From positions 1 to 34,739 of the forward strand of contig CADAER010000050.1 in NCBI GenBank assembly GCA_902787025.1: a DNA stretch of 34,739 nt, written 5' to 3'. The position numbers were made by a program, and so were the translations under genes. Below are positions 16,327 through 28,441 of the stretch, piece by piece (within the stretch, counting starts at the first letter, position 1; the number at the start of each line of letters is the position of its first letter). The DNA comes from Oscillospiraceae bacterium (lineage in GTDB: Bacteria > Bacillota > Clostridia > Oscillospirales > Acutalibacteraceae). Below the pieces are notes generated by a model. It saw only the letters and a program-made list of their open reading frames with translations. It ran no database searches and was not told the origin of the DNA.

Positions 16327-18540
16327 CTATTCGTTATAAATGACATTTCCGGCGCCGAGAATTTTTCTGAGTTCTCTCAAAAGCACCTCATTTACAGATA
16401 CACCGTTTCTTAAGTCAAACATTTTATATTCATTTTTGTCACTGAAATAATAGTAAAGCGGAAAACTGCCGTCAAAAATCGCAAGCAGTTTTTCACATTC
16501 CGCAATTTGCGGAGAATTTGCCGAATCGAACCGCAGAAACAGACCTTTGCGCTGTTTCTTTTTCTCAGGCTGTTTCTCGGGCTTCGGCGGACAGGGTTCA
16601 ATCAGTTCGGCAATTATTTTAGGTTCTTCGTCTTCTTTAAGACTTAATCTGCCGTGAATCAGCACAATATTACCTTCGACCAGAATGGGATTATACGCGG
16701 CAAGAATACTTGAAAATGCAATTATTTCAATACTGCCCGTTATATCCTCAACCGTAATGTATGCCATGGAATTGTTTTTTGCGGTTATTTTTTTCTTGAT
16801 TGATGAAATCTGGCACAGCACACGGACTCTCTTATTATCTCCGCCTTCGGGACCGTCAAGAAGAGAACCTATTGTATCGGAGTTTATGCTTTTCGCCGTC
16901 TCGGCAAATTCTGCCATTGGATGGCCCGAAAGATAAAGACCCGTTACTTCCTTTTCGTATCTCAATTTTTCGGAAGTTGAATAATCATCCGCAGGTTCAA
17001 TTGCGAATTCTTCGGTTTCTTCCTCATCTGCGTCGGAATCACCGCTTAACAAATCAAAGAAGCCTATCTGACCGTCAACATTGCGTCTCCTTGTGTTTTC
17101 GAGATCTTCAAGAATCAAAGGCAGAGCGAGCATCATCTCACGGCGGTTTGAGCCGAGACCGTCAAGAGCGCCTGATTTAATAAGACTTTCCGCCGCGCGG
17201 CGGTTGAACTCCCTGCCCTGCATTCTGCGGCAAAAACCGTAGAACGAAGAAAAAGCTCCGTTTGTTTCGCGTTCCTCAATTATCTTTTCGATAAAGCCTG
17301 TTCCGAGATTTTTTATAGCAAGCAAACCGAAACGTATTTTGCTGTCGTCAACGGTAAATCCCGCAAAACTTTCATTTACATCAGGTGGAACGACATCAAT
17401 CGAAAGTCGTTTACATTCGGCTGTATATTCCGTAATTTTGTCTGTGTTATCCAGAAAGCTTGTAAGCGTTGCCGCAAGGAATTCTTTTGGATAATAGCAT
17501 TTAAGCCAGGCTGTCTGGTATGCGACATAAGCGTATGCGGCTGCATGCGCTTTATTGAACGCATAGGATGCAAAAGCAGCCATTTTATCAAATATCGCAA
17601 CCGCGGTTTTTTCGTCTACTCCCCTGCGAACCGCTCCGTCAACTTCAACATTTCCGTTTTCATCTGTTTTTCCGTAGATAAATATCTCGCGTTCCTGCAT
17701 CATTACATTATGCTTTTTCTTTGCCATCGCGCGACGGACAAGATCCGCTCTGCCGTAGGAATAGCCCGCAAGCTCGCGGCATATCTGCATAACCTGTTCC
17801 TGATAAACAATACAGCCGTATGTAACATCAAGAATATCTTTAAGCAACGGAGTGTCATATTTGATTTTTTTCGGATTATGCCTGTTTGCTATATATTCAG
17901 GTATAGATTCCATCGGACCCGGTCTGTATAGAGAAATAACCGCTATCATATCTTCAATGCTCTGCGGACTGAGTCCGACAAGAACATTGCGCATACCTGC
18001 GGATTCAAACTGGAAAACTCCTTCCGTCTGACCGGTGCAAAGCATTGCAAACACTTTTTTATCATCCGTATTGATCTTATCAATGTCAAAATCCGGCTTT
18101 TGCCGTCTTACCGCTTTGACTGTATCATCAATAACCGTCAGTGTTCTGAGACCGAGAAAATCCATTTTTAGAAGTCCGAGTTCCTCAAGCGCAGTCATTG
18201 TATATTGAGTTACGACTGTATCTTCATTTTTGGCAAGAGGAACATAAGACACAACCGGCTCATTTGTGATGACAACGCCCGCCGCGTGAGTTGAAGTATT
18301 ACGCGGCATTCCTTCAACTTTCCGGGCAAGGTCAATAAGTTCTCTCATTTGTTCGGAAGAATGATATATCTCTCTGAAATCGGGTGAAGTTTCAAGCGCT
18401 TCATCCAATGTAATATTCAGTTTTTTAGGAACGGCTTTCGCTACTTTGTCAACAATCGTGTATGAGATTCCCAGCACTCTGCCGACATCACGGACAGCCG
18501 CCTTTGCCGCAAGGGTGCCGAACGTAACAATCTGCGCCAC
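16327..18540 (-). CDS. dnaE: DNA polymerase III subunit alpha, C-terminal fragment of disrupted dnaE
   Basis: The second part of the replicative polymerase gene covers most of the palm, fingers, the helix-hairpin-helix region and the OB domain. Homology begins at [19 protein letters not shown], so it extends a few codons upstream (to 18555) of the GTG at 18540. Visible motifs are [16 protein letters not shown] (third catalytic Asp, equivalent to E. coli Asp555), [35 protein letters not shown] and the OB-like [13 protein letters not shown]. It joins the N-terminal fragment in a different frame, and about 52 bases are missing between them. The GTG has no convincing ribosome site, so it is unlikely to be made as a separate protein. 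It ends in TAG, 12 bases before the lipoprotein start. Confidence 0.9.
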
Positions 18541-19754
18541 ATGGTCGTCGCCGTATTATCAAAGTCCGGCATACTGACCCTTTCGGGGTTTAGAAATCTC
18601 TCAAAAAGAAGGTTGTATTTCATCGGATCTATGCCGGTTATTCCGATGCAATATGCGCATATGCTCGCGGCACCTGAGCCTCTGCCCGGGCCTACGGGTA
18701 TGCCTGCGCTTTTAGCGTGATTCACGAAGTCCTGCACTATGAGATAATAGTCAACATAGCCCATTCTTTCGATTACGCCGAGTTCGTAATTGAGCCTTTC
18801 AACATATTCCGACGGAGGAGTGTCACCGTAACGCTCTTTGAAGCCTTTTTTGCAGAGAAGTTCAAACCACTCATTGTGGCTGTAACCTTCAGGAACATCG
18901 AAGTGAGGCAGTTTTGTTTTGCCGAATTCAAATGTGACATTACATTTGTCGGCAATAGCCTGTGTGTTTTCAACAGCCTGCGGATAATCCGAAAGAGCAT
19001 CCCTCATTTCTTCTTCGCTTTTGACATAAAGCTCGTCGCTGCTGAATTCAAGCCCTGTGCTCTCCCCCAAAGTATGGTTGGTCTGTATGCAGATAAGAAC
19101 CTGCTGTGCTTTTGAATCGTTTTTTTCTATATAATGACAGTCGTTTGTTGCGGCGAGAGGAATTCCTGTTTCCTCCGAAAGTCTTTTGAAAAGAGGATTG
19201 ACCGATGCCTGTTCACGAAGACCGTGATTCTGTATTTCCAGATAATAGTTACCTTCGCCGAAAATGCCATTATATTTAAAAGCAAGAGCTTTCGCTTCTT
19301 CATATTCGTTTCTTTGTAAATGACGGGACACTTCTCCGAAAAGGCAGCCTGAAAGAGCAATCAGACCCTCGTGATACTTTTCAAGCAGTTCAATATCAAC
19401 TCTCGGCTTTGCGTAAAAGCCGTTCACCCAGCTTTCGGAGACAATGCGGGTTAAATTGCGGTAGCCTTCATTATTCTTGCATAATAGAATAAGATGATAA
19501 CGCTCGCTGTCGATTCCGTGAACCTTGTCAAATCTCGACCTCGGCGCAACATAGACTTCACATCCGATTATAGGTTTTATTCCCATATCGAGCGCTGTTT
19601 TATAAAAATCAATTACACCATACATAACACCGTGGTCGGTAATCGCGCAGGCGCACTGACCGAGCTCCCTGACTTTTTCGAGCAGAGGTTTTATTCTGCA
19701 GGCGCCGTCAAGAAGACTGTATTCGGTATGGACGTGTAAATGAGTAAATGCCAT
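18441..19754 (-). CDS. dnaE: DNA polymerase III subunit alpha, N-terminal fragment of disrupted dnaE
   Basis: The first 399 residues are normal DnaE: PHP domain start [19 protein letters not shown], then [11 protein letters not shown], and the start of the palm with [23 protein letters not shown] and [11 protein letters not shown]. After PDFD (codon 18560-18558) the frame continues with 38 unrelated residues to a stop at 18441. Intact enzymes continue D-I/V-D-F-C at this point, so the first catalytic Asp is kept and the second is lost. The ATG is one base after the whiA stop. This is a sequence-level disruption of an essential gene; see the finding on the deletion. Confidence 0.9.
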
Positions 19755-20661: not shown

Positions 20662-21567
20662 TCAACCTATAAACTTTATCTCGGGTTCAAGAATATATCC
20701 CGTGTTTTTAAAAACGGTTTCTTTAACATATTCAACAAGTTCCATAACATCTTTTGATGTTGCCCCGCCCTTGTTGATAACAAATCCGGCGTGTTTTTCG
20801 CTGACCTGAGCTCCACCTATGCCGAAACCTTTAAGACCGCACTGTTCAATGAGCGCGCCTGCGTAATTGCCTTGCGGGCGTTTGAAGGTGCTGCCTGCGG
20901 ACGGATAATCGAGGGGCTGTTTAGCCTTGCGGCGCGACAGAAGATCATCCATTTTTGCTTTTATCTCGTTTTTGTCGGTAGGCGTAAGAGTTACAGTAAT
21001 ACCCGTTATTGCATAATCGCCGTCCGAATAAACACTGTGACGGTAGCCGAGATCAAGACTGTTTTTATCAAAACTTCCGAAAGACCCGTTCTTATCGATA
21101 TGAGAAGCACTTATCGTGACATCTTTCATCTCACCGCCGTATGCGCCCGCATTCATAAAAATCGCTCCGCCTGCACTGCCCGGTATTCCGTATGCAAACT
21201 CAAGACCTGAAAGCGAATTTTCAAGCGCAAACGAGCAAAGCCGGATAAGAGGAGTGCCGGCAAGACAGGTTATGTTTCCGTTTCCGTCATAATCAATGCC
21301 TTCAAGAGCTGATGTCAGTATAACAACACCTTTTATTCCGTTATCGGAGACAAGTATATTACTGCCTTTTCCGATGATATGATATTTCGTTTCGCTGTCG
21401 ATACAGAATCCGATAAGTTCACGGAGTTTTTCAACGGAATCCGGAATTGCCAGGAACGAAGCGGGTCCGCCTATTCTAAATGTAGTCAGTTCGCTCATCG
21501 GAGCGTCAAGACGGAACTCGCACTTTATTCTATCGCAAAAGGATTCAAATGACTTGATATCATTCAT
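20662..21567 (-). CDS. murB: UDP-N-acetylmuramate dehydrogenase
   Basis: MurB is the cytosolic FAD enzyme that reduces UDP-GlcNAc-enolpyruvate to UDP-MurNAc for peptidoglycan. The 301-residue protein has TTFRIGGPA, GKGSNILVSDNG and GIPGSAGGAIFMNAGAYGGE for FAD binding. It also has DYPSAGSTFKRP with the catalytic Ser and a C-terminal GFGIGGAQVSEKHAGFVIN plus EPEIKFIG with the conserved Glu. This is the type IIb-like short form common in Firmicutes. The ATG overlaps the glk stop by one base (TAATG). Confidence 0.95.
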   Translation of the reverse strand: MNDIKSFESFCDRIKCEFRLDAPMSELTTFRIGGPASFLAIPDSVEKLRELIGFCIDSETKYHIIGKGSNILVSDNGIKGVVILTSALEGIDYDGNGNITCLAGTPLIRLCSFALENSLSGLEFAYGIPGSAGGAIFMNAGAYGGEMKDVTISASHIDKNGSFGSFDKNSLDLGYRHSVYSDGDYAITGITVTLTPTDKNEIKAKMDDLLSRRKAKQPLDYPSAGSTFKRPQGNYAGALIEQCGLKGFGIGGAQVSEKHAGFVINKGGATSKDVMELVEYVKETVFKNTGYILEPEIKFIG

Positions 21568-22340
21568 TATTCGTCAAGAAGAGCCGCGCCGTAAATACCG
21601 GCGTCGTTGCCGAGTTCAGCCGAAACAATGGCAGTCTGCTTCTTTGCGTGAATGCTGTATCTGCCTCTGTTGACATATTTACGGACGGGAACAAGAAGAG
21701 TCTCGCCTTCATGACCGATTCCGCCGCCGACACAGATTATTTCAGGCTGAAGAGCGTTTATGATATTAACGATGCCCTCGGAAAGATAGTAGATATAATT
21801 CGCAACAACTTTCTCGGCTGTCGCATCGCCTCTGCGCATAGCGTCAAACGAGGTTCTGCCGTTTACTTTATTGACATCGCCGTCGACTATTTCCCACATA
21901 ATGCTGTTCTGGTCGTGGCGCATAGCGTCTTTTGTCTGTGCAATAAGCGCCGTTGCCGAAGCGTATCTTTCCCAGCAGCCGCGTCTGCCGCAGTTGCACT
22001 GCTCGCCGTCGACACAGATAACCATATGGCCGAGTTCGCCTGCCGCATAGTTTATTCCGCTTACTATTTTGCCGTCAAGGATGATACCGCTGCCGACACC
22101 GGTTCCGAGTGTTATGGCAACAAAGTTTTTAACGCCTTTGCCGCAACCGGCAACCGCTTCGCCGAGAGCCGCGCAGTTTGCGTCATTGTCAAGATAAACG
22201 GTTTTGCCGTCAAGTCTCGCTTCGAGCATTTCCTTCGCGGGAACCTGATCGAAATCTAGATTGTTTGCAAATTCGATATATCCGTTTGATTTATTGACTG
22301 AACCGGGGGTTCCTATGCCGATTGACTTGACATCATCAAG
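21567..22340 (-). pseudogene. glk: ROK-family glucokinase, C-terminal fragment
   Basis: This frame carries most of a ROK glucokinase: LDDVKSIGIGTPGSVNKSNG, DNDANCAALGEAVAG, ITLGTGVGSGIILDGK, the zinc site GHMVICVDGEQCNCGRRGCWE and VCVGGGIGHEGE. Homology is continuous upstream of the first ATG (22229) up to about 22340, where it stops abruptly. The N-terminus is in another frame just upstream, and about 20 codons are missing between them. Initiation at the internal ATG 22229 would remove the ATP-binding first strands. Its neighbour upstream is hprK and downstream murB. Confidence 0.85.
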
Positions 22341-22453
22341 AGTTCTCTCGGGCAGTTTGTTTTCTTTTTGCCTCTGCCAACTATCTGCAGATTTTCATCA
22401 ATTACTCCGACGGCGATATTTGTTCCGCCGAGATCAACGCCTACTCTATACAT
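22313..22453 (-). pseudogene. glk: ROK-family glucokinase, N-terminal fragment
   Basis: It starts at the ATG 22453 with an excellent CGGAGG ribosome site, 25 bases after hprK. The protein begins MYRVGVDLGGTNIAVGVIDE, the ROK phosphate-binding strand, and continues to KKKTNCPRE. It then leaves the glucokinase frame near 22343 and stops at 22313. Intact relatives have about 20 more residues before the GIGTPG strand. The good start signals show that the gene was recently functional, or that the defect is in the sequence data. Confidence 0.85.
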
Positions 22454-23479: not shown

Positions 23480-25426
23480 TCAAAGTAACCTGACGGGGAA
23501 AAGCCAGATATCGCCTTTACCGAACAGCATTGAGCTTATTTTACTGATAAACATACATACTTTCAAAAGGAAAGGTTTGAGAACATATCTGACTGTCGGG
23601 CTGTCATAACCGTCGGAAAGCATCTTTGCGTTATACATTGCTTTGTAGAGAGCCTGTTCTTTTTCATCGGTTTCGGCTTGAGCCCAGTTACGGCTAAGCA
23701 GAAGGTTTTCGCAATCTTCATAAGCCGCGGTAACTTCATTTTTCTTTTGTTCTGATAAAGAACTCAAATCGGACCTTCTGTAATCTTCCATAAGTTTTTT
23801 TACGGTTGAAAGATCTCTGTATTCATTGAACTGCGGATAGCCGCCGTTGTTTTTTCTGGCATCGGTGATTTCTTTATCCGTAACCAGTTGAACGCACATT
23901 TCGATAATATCGGTAATGCTCGACTGAAGTTTGAGATGGCTCTGATTTCTTACGAACCAGGTCCTGTCGGGAAGAGCGCATGTGCCTGCGTCGACAATTC
24001 CGTCGGGGCTCAAATAACTTCTGTCAATAGCGGGTGTATATCCGTCGCCCAAAACATCACCGACATTTGCAAATGTGCCGCCCGCGGATGTTGACTGTGC
24101 CTGAATAATATTGTCGGAACTCAGATTGTAATGCTCAACAAGAGCCGGCAATTCAAGGTTGTAACCGCTGATAACAAATATATCTACGCCCTGTTCAGTA
24201 AGAGACTGCATTGTCTCTGCTGCGGAAAGCTGGATATTATAGTATTCATCCGTCATTTCTTTCAGCGCGGAATGTTCTGAATCTGAGATGTATTTTTTTG
24301 AAAGATCCGGATAAACTCCGCTCGGGACAAGCGCCCACATCGACTGGCAGTTGCGCATAAGTTTTGCGAGCACTTCATCTATTCCCCGCGAGAGTGTTTC
24401 CGCGAGAAAATCGTTAAAGAGTTCCGCTGGTATGGCCTTTGCTATAACATTACCGAGATAAGCCAGTGACATATATTCCTCTGCCGCAAGCGAGACGATA
24501 TTGGGAATCAATTCATTATAAAGAACTTCGTCGTTGTCAAAAGTCGAAGCGCCGTCCATAAGGTCGGAAAGAAGATAGGACCCGTCAATAGCCGCCGCGG
24601 CGAAAACCACTCTGTCAAGGTCTTCGGGATTTGCGTATTTTGAGAGGAAAACATTGCCTATTGTTCCGCCGAGACTGATAAAGACAATACTGACTTTGTC
24701 GTGTCCCGTCTGTGTTTTGACCATTTCAATGTATTCATTGAGTCCCTTTGCGGATTCAAGGATGTTGCCGAAAGAACTGTATGAATAATAATAAGCGTGA
24801 TCATAACCGTATTTGTCGCAGAAAGATGAGATGTCAACCTGCCGTTTAATGAAATCAAGCTCGTGCTCATATTTGGTTGTCGGCAGAGTGTTGCCGTTTT
24901 CATCCTTACTGTAACCTTTTGCGTAATTGTAGGATTTTTCGGGCTTTGTCGCACATTCTTCAAGAGAATACCAATATTCGTCAACAGCCACATCGTTTAC
25001 CCTTGTGCCGTCCGGCTTGAAATAATGGCTTGAAAAACTTTCATCAAGGATGCCGATGACAATGTCAAGAAGAGCCTGTCTGTCGTGTTTCAAAACACAG
25101 AGAAGAATATCGCCTATTGCGTCTTTGAATTTGGCTTTCATAACCTCTGTGTCGAACATAAACTGCATATCCATACCCTCAACAATCGGGAAACCGTCGC
25201 TTGTCATTAGATCGTTGCCGTTTTCATCCTGAACATAGACCTGAGACTGCATAATACCGGGAACAACGATAAGCGGACTTACCCCGCAATCACCGTTGCA
25301 GGAGGTTTTGACTTCGGATTCCCATTCGTGGGTATGCTCTACAGTCGTTTCTGCGTGAACGGAAAGCAAAGTGCCGAACAACAAAATGACAGCCATGACA
25401 AGACAAAACAGTCTTTTGAAATTCAT
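23480..25426 (-). CDS. Secreted LCAT-like alpha/beta-hydrolase (putative lipase/acyltransferase), paralogue 1
   Basis: The 648-residue protein has a signal peptide (MNFKRLFCLVMAVILLFGTL, cleaved near VHA). A mature start with a HTHEWES segment is followed by LIVVPGIMQSQVY, the oxyanion strand typical of LCAT-type hydrolases. The nucleophile elbow is VFISLGG (Ser about 251) rather than GxSxG. The LCAT hallmark YDWR is replaced by YSYSSF. A possible catalytic His is in RNQSHLKL. After the hydrolase comes a helical region of about 100 residues and a hydrophobic C-terminus. AGAGGA selects ATG 25426 over a start three codons upstream. It has its own promoter and may lead the hprK run. Substrate unknown. 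Confidence 0.8.
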   Translation of the reverse strand: MNFKRLFCLVMAVILLFGTLLSVHAETTVEHTHEWESEVKTSCNGDCGVSPLIVVPGIMQSQVYVQDENGNDLMTSDGFPIVEGMDMQFMFDTEVMKAKFKDAIGDILLCVLKHDRQALLDIVIGILDESFSSHYFKPDGTRVNDVAVDEYWYSLEECATKPEKSYNYAKGYSKDENGNTLPTTKYEHELDFIKRQVDISSFCDKYGYDHAYYYSYSSFGNILESAKGLNEYIEMVKTQTGHDKVSIVFISLGGTIGNVFLSKYANPEDLDRVVFAAAAIDGSYLLSDLMDGASTFDNDEVLYNELIPNIVSLAAEEYMSLAYLGNVIAKAIPAELFNDFLAETLSRGIDEVLAKLMRNCQSMWALVPSGVYPDLSKKYISDSEHSALKEMTDEYYNIQLSAAETMQSLTEQGVDIFVISGYNLELPALVEHYNLSSDNIIQAQSTSAGGTFANVGDVLGDGYTPAIDRSYLSPDGIVDAGTCALPDRTWFVRNQSHLKLQSSITDIIEMCVQLVTDKEITDARKNNGGYPQFNEYRDLSTVKKLMEDYRRSDLSSLSEQKKNEVTAAYEDCENLLLSRNWAQAETDEKEQALYKAMYNAKMLSDGYDSPTVRYVLKPFLLKVCMFISKISSMLFGKGDIWLFPVRLL

Positions 25427-25455
25427 TGTCAACATCCTCTCAATAAATTGTTTTT

Positions 25456-26965: not shown

Positions 26966-28441
26966 ATGAAAAGAATAATCAGCCTTTTTCTGACACTCGC
27001 GCTCCTGTTCGGTATGACAACCATTCCCGCGTCCGCTTCAAAGGGCGTGCAGTCCCCCGCCGACGCTTCCGCAAAAGCAGAATATGACGGATATCCGTTT
27101 ATTCTTGTTCGCGGAATGGAAATAAGTCTGCTCGTTCACAAACTGGGCACAGATGAGGAAGAACCCGCTTTCCCCGGAATTAACGCGGGAGAACTGATTT
27201 TCAAACTGCTGAAAGCTATCGCGAACGGTATTGTTCACTGGGATATTGATTATTTTACCGAGGATGTTCTAAAATATGTTGACAAGCTTCTCGGTCTTCT
27301 CGCCTGCAACAAAGACGGAACCTCGAAATATGATGTTTCCGTTCAGGAGTATCCCCTTGCACTGAGCAACTATCCAGAATTTGTCAACGAGCTTCCCGAT
27401 GACAACGAGTGGGGTATTCTCAAAGCCGCGTGCGAGCATTACGGAAGCGAAAATGTATATTATTATATGTATGACTGGCGTCTTGACCCGTTTATGCACG
27501 CGGATAAGATAAACGAAATGGTTAAGCGTGCGCTTGCTGACTCCGGAAAAGATAAAGTCAACATTGTATGCTCGAGCATGGGCGGAATTATGACAGAAAG
27601 TTATCTTTATAAATACGGTCACGAGGATGTAAACCGTGTTATTTTCCTTTCATCAACATTCTGCGGAACCTATGTTACAACAGACCTGTTCGCAGGCAAG
27701 GCGGTTATTGAGCCGGACGCACTTTACAATTTTGTTTATCAGAAGTTGGGCGGGAGCAACGTCGCACTCGGATTACTCTACAAAGGGCTTGACAAAATCG
27801 GCTCGTTTGAGAGAATTGCAAACTTAGGCAACAAGCTGATAGAGAAACTGAAAGACAAGGTTTATGACGAGTTTCTCTCCCCTGTTTTCGGCACAATGCC
27901 GTCGCTTTGGGCTCTCTGCCTGCCCGACGGATATGACGAGGATATTGAGTTTATGTTCGGCGGCAAAGAGAATGAATATGCCGAAATTATTGCGCTGACA
28001 AAAGAATATCAGAAAATGGCAAAAGCAAGAAACGAGTTTTTACAGGAAGACGATGATTTCTTCTTTGAAGTTGTAGCAAGCTACGGAACTGCAAACATTC
28101 CGATTTATTTAAGAGGCGGTGAAAGCGGAGACGGAACGCTCGAAAGCGGTCCTATGCTCGGTTTTGCGAAAGTCGCAAGAATAGGTCAGACGCTCGGCGA
28201 CGGATATAAAGGCAAACGCGTCTCACCCGACAGAATCTGCGACCTTTCGGATGTTCTCTACCCCGAAACAACCTGGGCAATCAGCGGCTCACCTCATGTT
28301 GCCTGCAGCTACGGAACCGATTACTCCGATTTTGTCTTCTGGATTCTGAGCAACGAGGGCAGAGTAACCGTTGACAGCAATCCGAAATATCCGCAGTTTA
28401 TGAAATCTTCGGTGAATATGGAACTGGAATTATACAAGTAA
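26966..28441 (+). CDS. Secreted LCAT-like alpha/beta-hydrolase (putative lipase/acyltransferase), paralogue 2
   Basis: The 491-residue protein has a signal peptide cleaved near SASA (residues 22-25). PFILVRGMEIS is the first hydrolase strand. YYYMYDWRLDP (166-175) is the LCAT/phospholipid acyltransferase hallmark. VNIVCSSMGGIMTES gives the nucleophile Ser204 in a C-x-S-x-G elbow, where Gly is usual at the first place. A late His in SGSPHVACSYG could complete the triad. The overall order matches the 648-residue homologue encoded divergently at 23480-25426, but this protein lacks the long C-terminal extension. It probably acts on an extracellular acyl ester. No terminator precedes the tRNA gene. 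Confidence 0.85.
   Translation: MKRIISLFLTLALLFGMTTIPASASKGVQSPADASAKAEYDGYPFILVRGMEISLLVHKLGTDEEEPAFPGINAGELIFKLLKAIANGIVHWDIDYFTEDVLKYVDKLLGLLACNKDGTSKYDVSVQEYPLALSNYPEFVNELPDDNEWGILKAACEHYGSENVYYYMYDWRLDPFMHADKINEMVKRALADSGKDKVNIVCSSMGGIMTESYLYKYGHEDVNRVIFLSSTFCGTYVTTDLFAGKAVIEPDALYNFVYQKLGGSNVALGLLYKGLDKIGSFERIANLGNKLIEKLKDKVYDEFLSPVFGTMPSLWALCLPDGYDEDIEFMFGGKENEYAEIIALTKEYQKMAKARNEFLQEDDDFFFEVVASYGTANIPIYLRGGESGDGTLESGPMLGFAKVARIGQTLGDGYKGKRVSPDRICDLSDVLYPETTWAISGSPHVACSYGTDYSDFVFWILSNEGRVTVDSNPKYPQFMKSSVNMELELYK

Follow-up and report, generated by a model that had tools for sequence, protein, structure and literature searches.

A 52-base out-of-frame loss in dnaE of an Oscillospiraceae draft genome is very probably an assembly join error

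The dnaE gene of the genome analyzed here is assembled in 2 reading frames, separated by the loss of exactly 52 bases. We consider this break to be very probably an assembly join error; the organism itself most likely carries dnaE as a single intact gene, encoding the second replicative polymerase beside PolC. Four observations led to this reading: both halves of the gene are open and constrained, no other dnaE was found in the bin, losses of the same kind recur elsewhere in the assembly, and runs of N in the assembly have wrong lengths. The window, meaning the whole stretch of DNA analyzed, is the complete contig C50 of 34,739 bases and contains no N bases. The draft genome to which it belongs comprises 114 contigs, totals 2,255,057 bases, and is 87.67% complete. 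At least 80 loci in named genomes matched the first part of dnaE, a list from which the window's own genome is possibly absent; many of these were metagenome bins labelled Clostridia or Oscillospiraceae from animal gut.

The gene starts at an ATG at 19754 on the minus strand, directly after whiA. Its first part (18558..19754, minus strand) was delimited by open reading frame, Pfam, and tblastn analysis and encodes the PHP domain followed by the beginning of the polymerase core; the frame is open to the GAT codon at 18560-18558 and ends with MPDFD. The Y-G-D-D-H-V segment then follows in another frame, which begins the second part (16327..18557, minus strand; same analyses), encoding the rest of the core, the fingers, the helix-hairpin-helix, and the OB fold, with a stop codon ending at 16327. 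The 2 halves were recovered by tblastn in frames -1 (399 residues, to 18558) and -3 (18555 to 16330), each with 92% amino acid identity to the congener G013. Pfam matches in the first part were PF02811 and PF07733 at profile positions 2-104, and those in the second part were PF07733 at positions 129-260, PF17657, PF14579, and PF01336. With the halves scored separately, the usual domain order of DnaE (the C-family polymerase III alpha chain) is thus retained.

Alignment with 3 congeners (G013, G044, and G043) placed the loss at 18557..18558 on the minus strand and determined its size to be 52 bases, out of frame. In the relatives G013, G044, G043, G045, and G056, PDFD and YG are separated by 18 residues. 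An earlier note on this DNA had estimated a loss of about 52 bases and about 18 residues from the sequence alone, and both estimates were borne out. No further frame break was found in dnaE in comparison with G013. The ends of the gap have at most one base in common, as judged by eye from the alignment with relatives, and no direct repeats of 8 or more bases were found around the junction in the assembled sequence; deletion between direct repeats was rejected on these grounds.

The same note had stated that the loss removes a catalytic aspartate, the equivalent of E. coli Asp403, and this was not the case. In the E. coli alpha chain (5fku_A), aligned with the G013 ortholog, the motif reads D401-F402-D403-V404-D405, and the PDFD of the window retains the equivalents of both D401 and D403. 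The third residue, D555, was counted along the G013 and 5fku_A alignment to the D of KMDFLGLRT in the second dnaE frame. The metal-binding residues of E. coli DnaE are D401, D403, and D555 (PMC3919608), so that all 3 metal-binding aspartates are still encoded in the window, as in intact DnaE. The aspartate that is lost is D405, together with 17 more residues. D405 is described as a further aspartate that is invariant among the DnaE groups, with Asn in its place in PolC (PMC3919608). In contrast to intact DnaE, the assembled gene therefore lies in 2 frames and offers no single open frame with an intact active-site region including D405. A protein without D405 and the 17 other residues would not be expected to work.

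Both halves of dnaE were compared with relatives for signs of decay. The dN/dS ratios for the first and second parts were 0.054 and 0.039 with G013 as the reference and 0.054 and 0.051 with G044, while those between intact relatives were 0.056 (G013 and G044) and 0.092 (G013 and G043); dS was near or above 1 in these comparisons, and the ratios are therefore rough. Relaxed selection on dnaE was rejected, with dN/dS of approximately 0.04-0.05 in both parts. As judged from these ratios, both halves are constrained as in intact relatives and under purifying selection. Neither the further disabling changes nor the relaxed selection expected of a pseudogene were seen, although a very young pseudogene would give the same lack of decay.

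A study of B. subtilis reports that the polymerase activity of DnaE is essential, and that DnaE with D changed to A at 382, 384, or 535 did not support growth (PMC5627055). These reports agree with the expectation in the earlier note that DnaE is essential even beside PolC. That note had also proposed a search for another dnaE and for polC. A second dnaE was not found in the bin, and polC is present on contig C23 of the same bin as an open frame of 1456 amino acids. Taken together, the open and constrained halves, the essentiality of DnaE, and the lack of a second dnaE indicate that dnaE is either a very young broken allele or a sequence error.

We searched a genus set of 45 genomes, the window's own genome among them, for dnaE. 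Twenty-eight other genomes had a dnaE with a PF07733 match from profile position 1 or 2 to 260 and no internal stop, including 2 with shortened open frames (699 amino acids in G005 and 677 in G056). Only in the window's genome did the dnaE match fall into 2 frames. A dnaE hit was absent in 16 of the 45 genomes, and 14 of these 16 also had no hprK, whiA, or pfkA. If loss were independent and occurred at each genome's rate of incompleteness, 6.75 genomes without the locus would be expected, compared to the 16 observed; the proportion of simulations reaching 16 or more was 0.0002. The hprK-whiA-dnaE-pfkA block is absent from bins more often than chance predicts, and this is likely the loss of one region during binning. 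The idea that some members of the genus have truly lost dnaE was rejected, as 14 of the 16 genomes miss the whole block and not dnaE alone. PheT, which lies at the opposite end of the window contig, was found in 36 of the 45 genomes. Some PF07733 match was present in 44 of the 45 genomes; the sole genome without any, and thus with neither polC nor dnaE, was G047, which is 86% complete. A weak PF07733 match (2.0e-7, positions 3-129) was also seen in a 456-amino-acid open frame at 105226-105726 of contig C15 in G008, a genome without a dnaE hit.

We then surveyed 1,290,005 bases of the window's genome against 1,208,842 bases of G013 and G044 (73,577 of which read N). These 2 relatives were the only survey references; G043, G045, and G056 were left out and served in the junction alignment and selection analysis. 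Reading frames were compared for 347 reference genes in the window's genome and 333 in the reverse direction, and DNA alignments for 342 and 323, respectively. Five clean out-of-frame losses of 34, 52, 64, 79, and 104 bases, with flank identities of 0.78-0.93, were found in the window's genome. Besides the 2 in the window, they lie at about 2376 on contig C2 (34 bases, L121), about 11469 on C30 (79 bases, L224), and about 27677 on C18 (104 bases, L179), each identified by DNA and frame comparison with relatives. The genes concerned are unrelated, namely the polymerase, a sugar kinase, a LytR-CpsA-Psr gene, a gene whose FAD-oxidoreductase match is weak and falls short of the Pfam cut-offs, and one other. 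Out-of-frame loss sites therefore numbered 5 in 347 gene comparisons, versus none in the 333 reverse comparisons (one-sided Fisher test, P = 0.034). This value is modest; the threshold was chosen post hoc, and some genes were counted twice, once for each relative.

In the DNA comparison, 12 rows showed out-of-frame losses of 20 bases or more in the window's genome. Five with flank identity of 0.60 or below were dropped as alignment noise, and the remaining 7 represent the 5 sites, both window sites having been seen against 2 relatives. The reverse direction gave 5 such rows, all with flank identity of 0.68 or below and all dropped. The frame comparison gave 12 broken rows, of which 7 were the same 5 sites, 1 was a low-complexity gene, and 4 were small offsets (on C2, C35, C7, and C9); the 5 reverse rows were small offsets near gene starts. 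Approximately 5 further frame differences that were small or unclear occurred in each direction. Offsets between alignment segments on C2, C35, and C7 had pointed to tandem duplications (17, 25, and 38 bases), but these were rejected, as the sequence contained no duplication. Losses that kept the reading frame, were 20 bases or longer, and had a flank identity of at least 0.75 numbered 5 in the window's genome versus 2 in the reverse direction. These may be real differences, and hence some of the gaps may be real too.

The second loss within the window is in an unrelated gene, a ROK-family kinase, 3.8 kb from the dnaE junction. The first part of this gene (22345..22453, minus strand) was recognized by tblastn with the G013 and G044 orthologs and from the sequence. 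Alignment with G013, G044, and G043 revealed 64 bases missing out of frame at 22344..22345 on the minus strand, after which the gene continues in another frame as a second part (21567..22344, minus strand; tblastn, and PF00480 at 22229-21570) with 96-99% amino acid identity to G013 and G044. Between 11500 and 24700 of the window, the dnaE gap of 52 bases and the ROK kinase gap of 64 bases were the only 2 common to the comparisons with G013, G044, and G043. Farther along, the window encodes 2 diverged proteins of the same type, one on each strand (23480-25435, minus; 26966-28441, plus); a G044 protein has 87% identity to the product of the former and 28% to that of the latter.

Seven N runs, of 25, 41, 36, 48, 66, 1, and 47 bases, were present in the 1,290,005 sampled bases, and 5 of the 7 could be measured against relatives. 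The run of 25 corresponds to about 27 bases in G013, that of 36 to 43 bases in G013, that of 48 to 79 bases in G013, and that of 47 to 35 bases in G056 and G044. The single N, at 15276 on C41 (L235), stands for 87 bases in G013, G056, and G043 and about 101 in G045. Gap values for C41, C9, and G044 include an extrapolation across 7 to 34 flank bases that did not align, and those for G045 across more. The runs on C24, whose region had no match in G013, G044, or G056, and on C38, with only a 36-base flank hit, were left out. For the run on C9, G044 and G056 were left out because 116-121 bases beside the run were unaligned, and for that on C36 these 2 genomes had no match to the right flank. The real spans of the 5 measured gaps were about 27-87 bases, a range into which most of the silent losses also fall; the estimated lengths erred by up to 86. 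The assembly thus contains scaffold gaps of wrong estimated length as well as at least 4 further losses like that of dnaE in unrelated genes, and no such losses were found in the compared stretches of G013 and G044.

These results suggest how the break could have arisen. Two contig ends lying about 52 bases apart inside dnaE would have been joined directly, without bases or Ns between them, probably owing to an estimated gap length of zero or less. We infer this assembler step from the case of the single N: if the estimated length were zero or negative, no filler would be inserted, and the result would be a scar exactly like that in dnaE. The earlier note held dnaE to be broken and named assembly error as the alternative; the recurring losses and the wrong N lengths do not support the former and point to the latter.

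A real and very recent deletion could instead have inactivated dnaE in the strain that was sampled, leaving PolC alone to replicate the genome. Such a deletion would fit the clean, out-of-frame gap, and in the bin the open polC frame is present and no other dnaE was found. Nevertheless, the rest of dnaE is without decay, DnaE activity is essential in B. subtilis, the one well-studied case cited here (PMC5627055), 4 other genes have like losses, and the N runs give wrong gap lengths; we regard a real deletion as improbable. That a PolC bacterium has just lost DnaE and copies its whole genome, including primer extension, with PolC alone is more improbable again.

Strain mixture is common in metagenome bins, and the genome is a 114-contig draft of the same kind as the metagenome bins among its named relatives. 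The deletion could therefore be real but derived from minority cells or a mixed strain and caught in the consensus by chance. This scenario leaves both the 5 losses of 34-104 bases in unrelated genes and the single N standing for 87 bases unexplained, and we give it very little weight. Lastly, dnaE could be functional as it stands, by a frame jump or as 2 cooperating polypeptides, given 2 open, constrained parts that between them still encode all 3 catalytic aspartates. Yet a frame jump cannot supply the 18 missing residues, including the conserved D405 (PMC3919608), and 28 dnaE genes of other genomes in the genus read through this region in one frame; this last scenario is extremely improbable. 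An assembly join error accounts best for the dnaE break. This break differs from fragmented C-family polymerase sequences in public genomes in that 52 bases are lost and losses of similar size recur in other genes of the assembly.

With the break as an artefact, the assembly seems to hold silent losses of approximately 30-100 bases within genes, and its apparent pseudogenes should therefore not be trusted without reads. The dnaE finding itself is then most likely ordinary, and explaining it requires neither a novel type of polymerase nor a cell that lives without DnaE. A real loss would call into question the idea that bacteria with PolC also need DnaE for primer extension.
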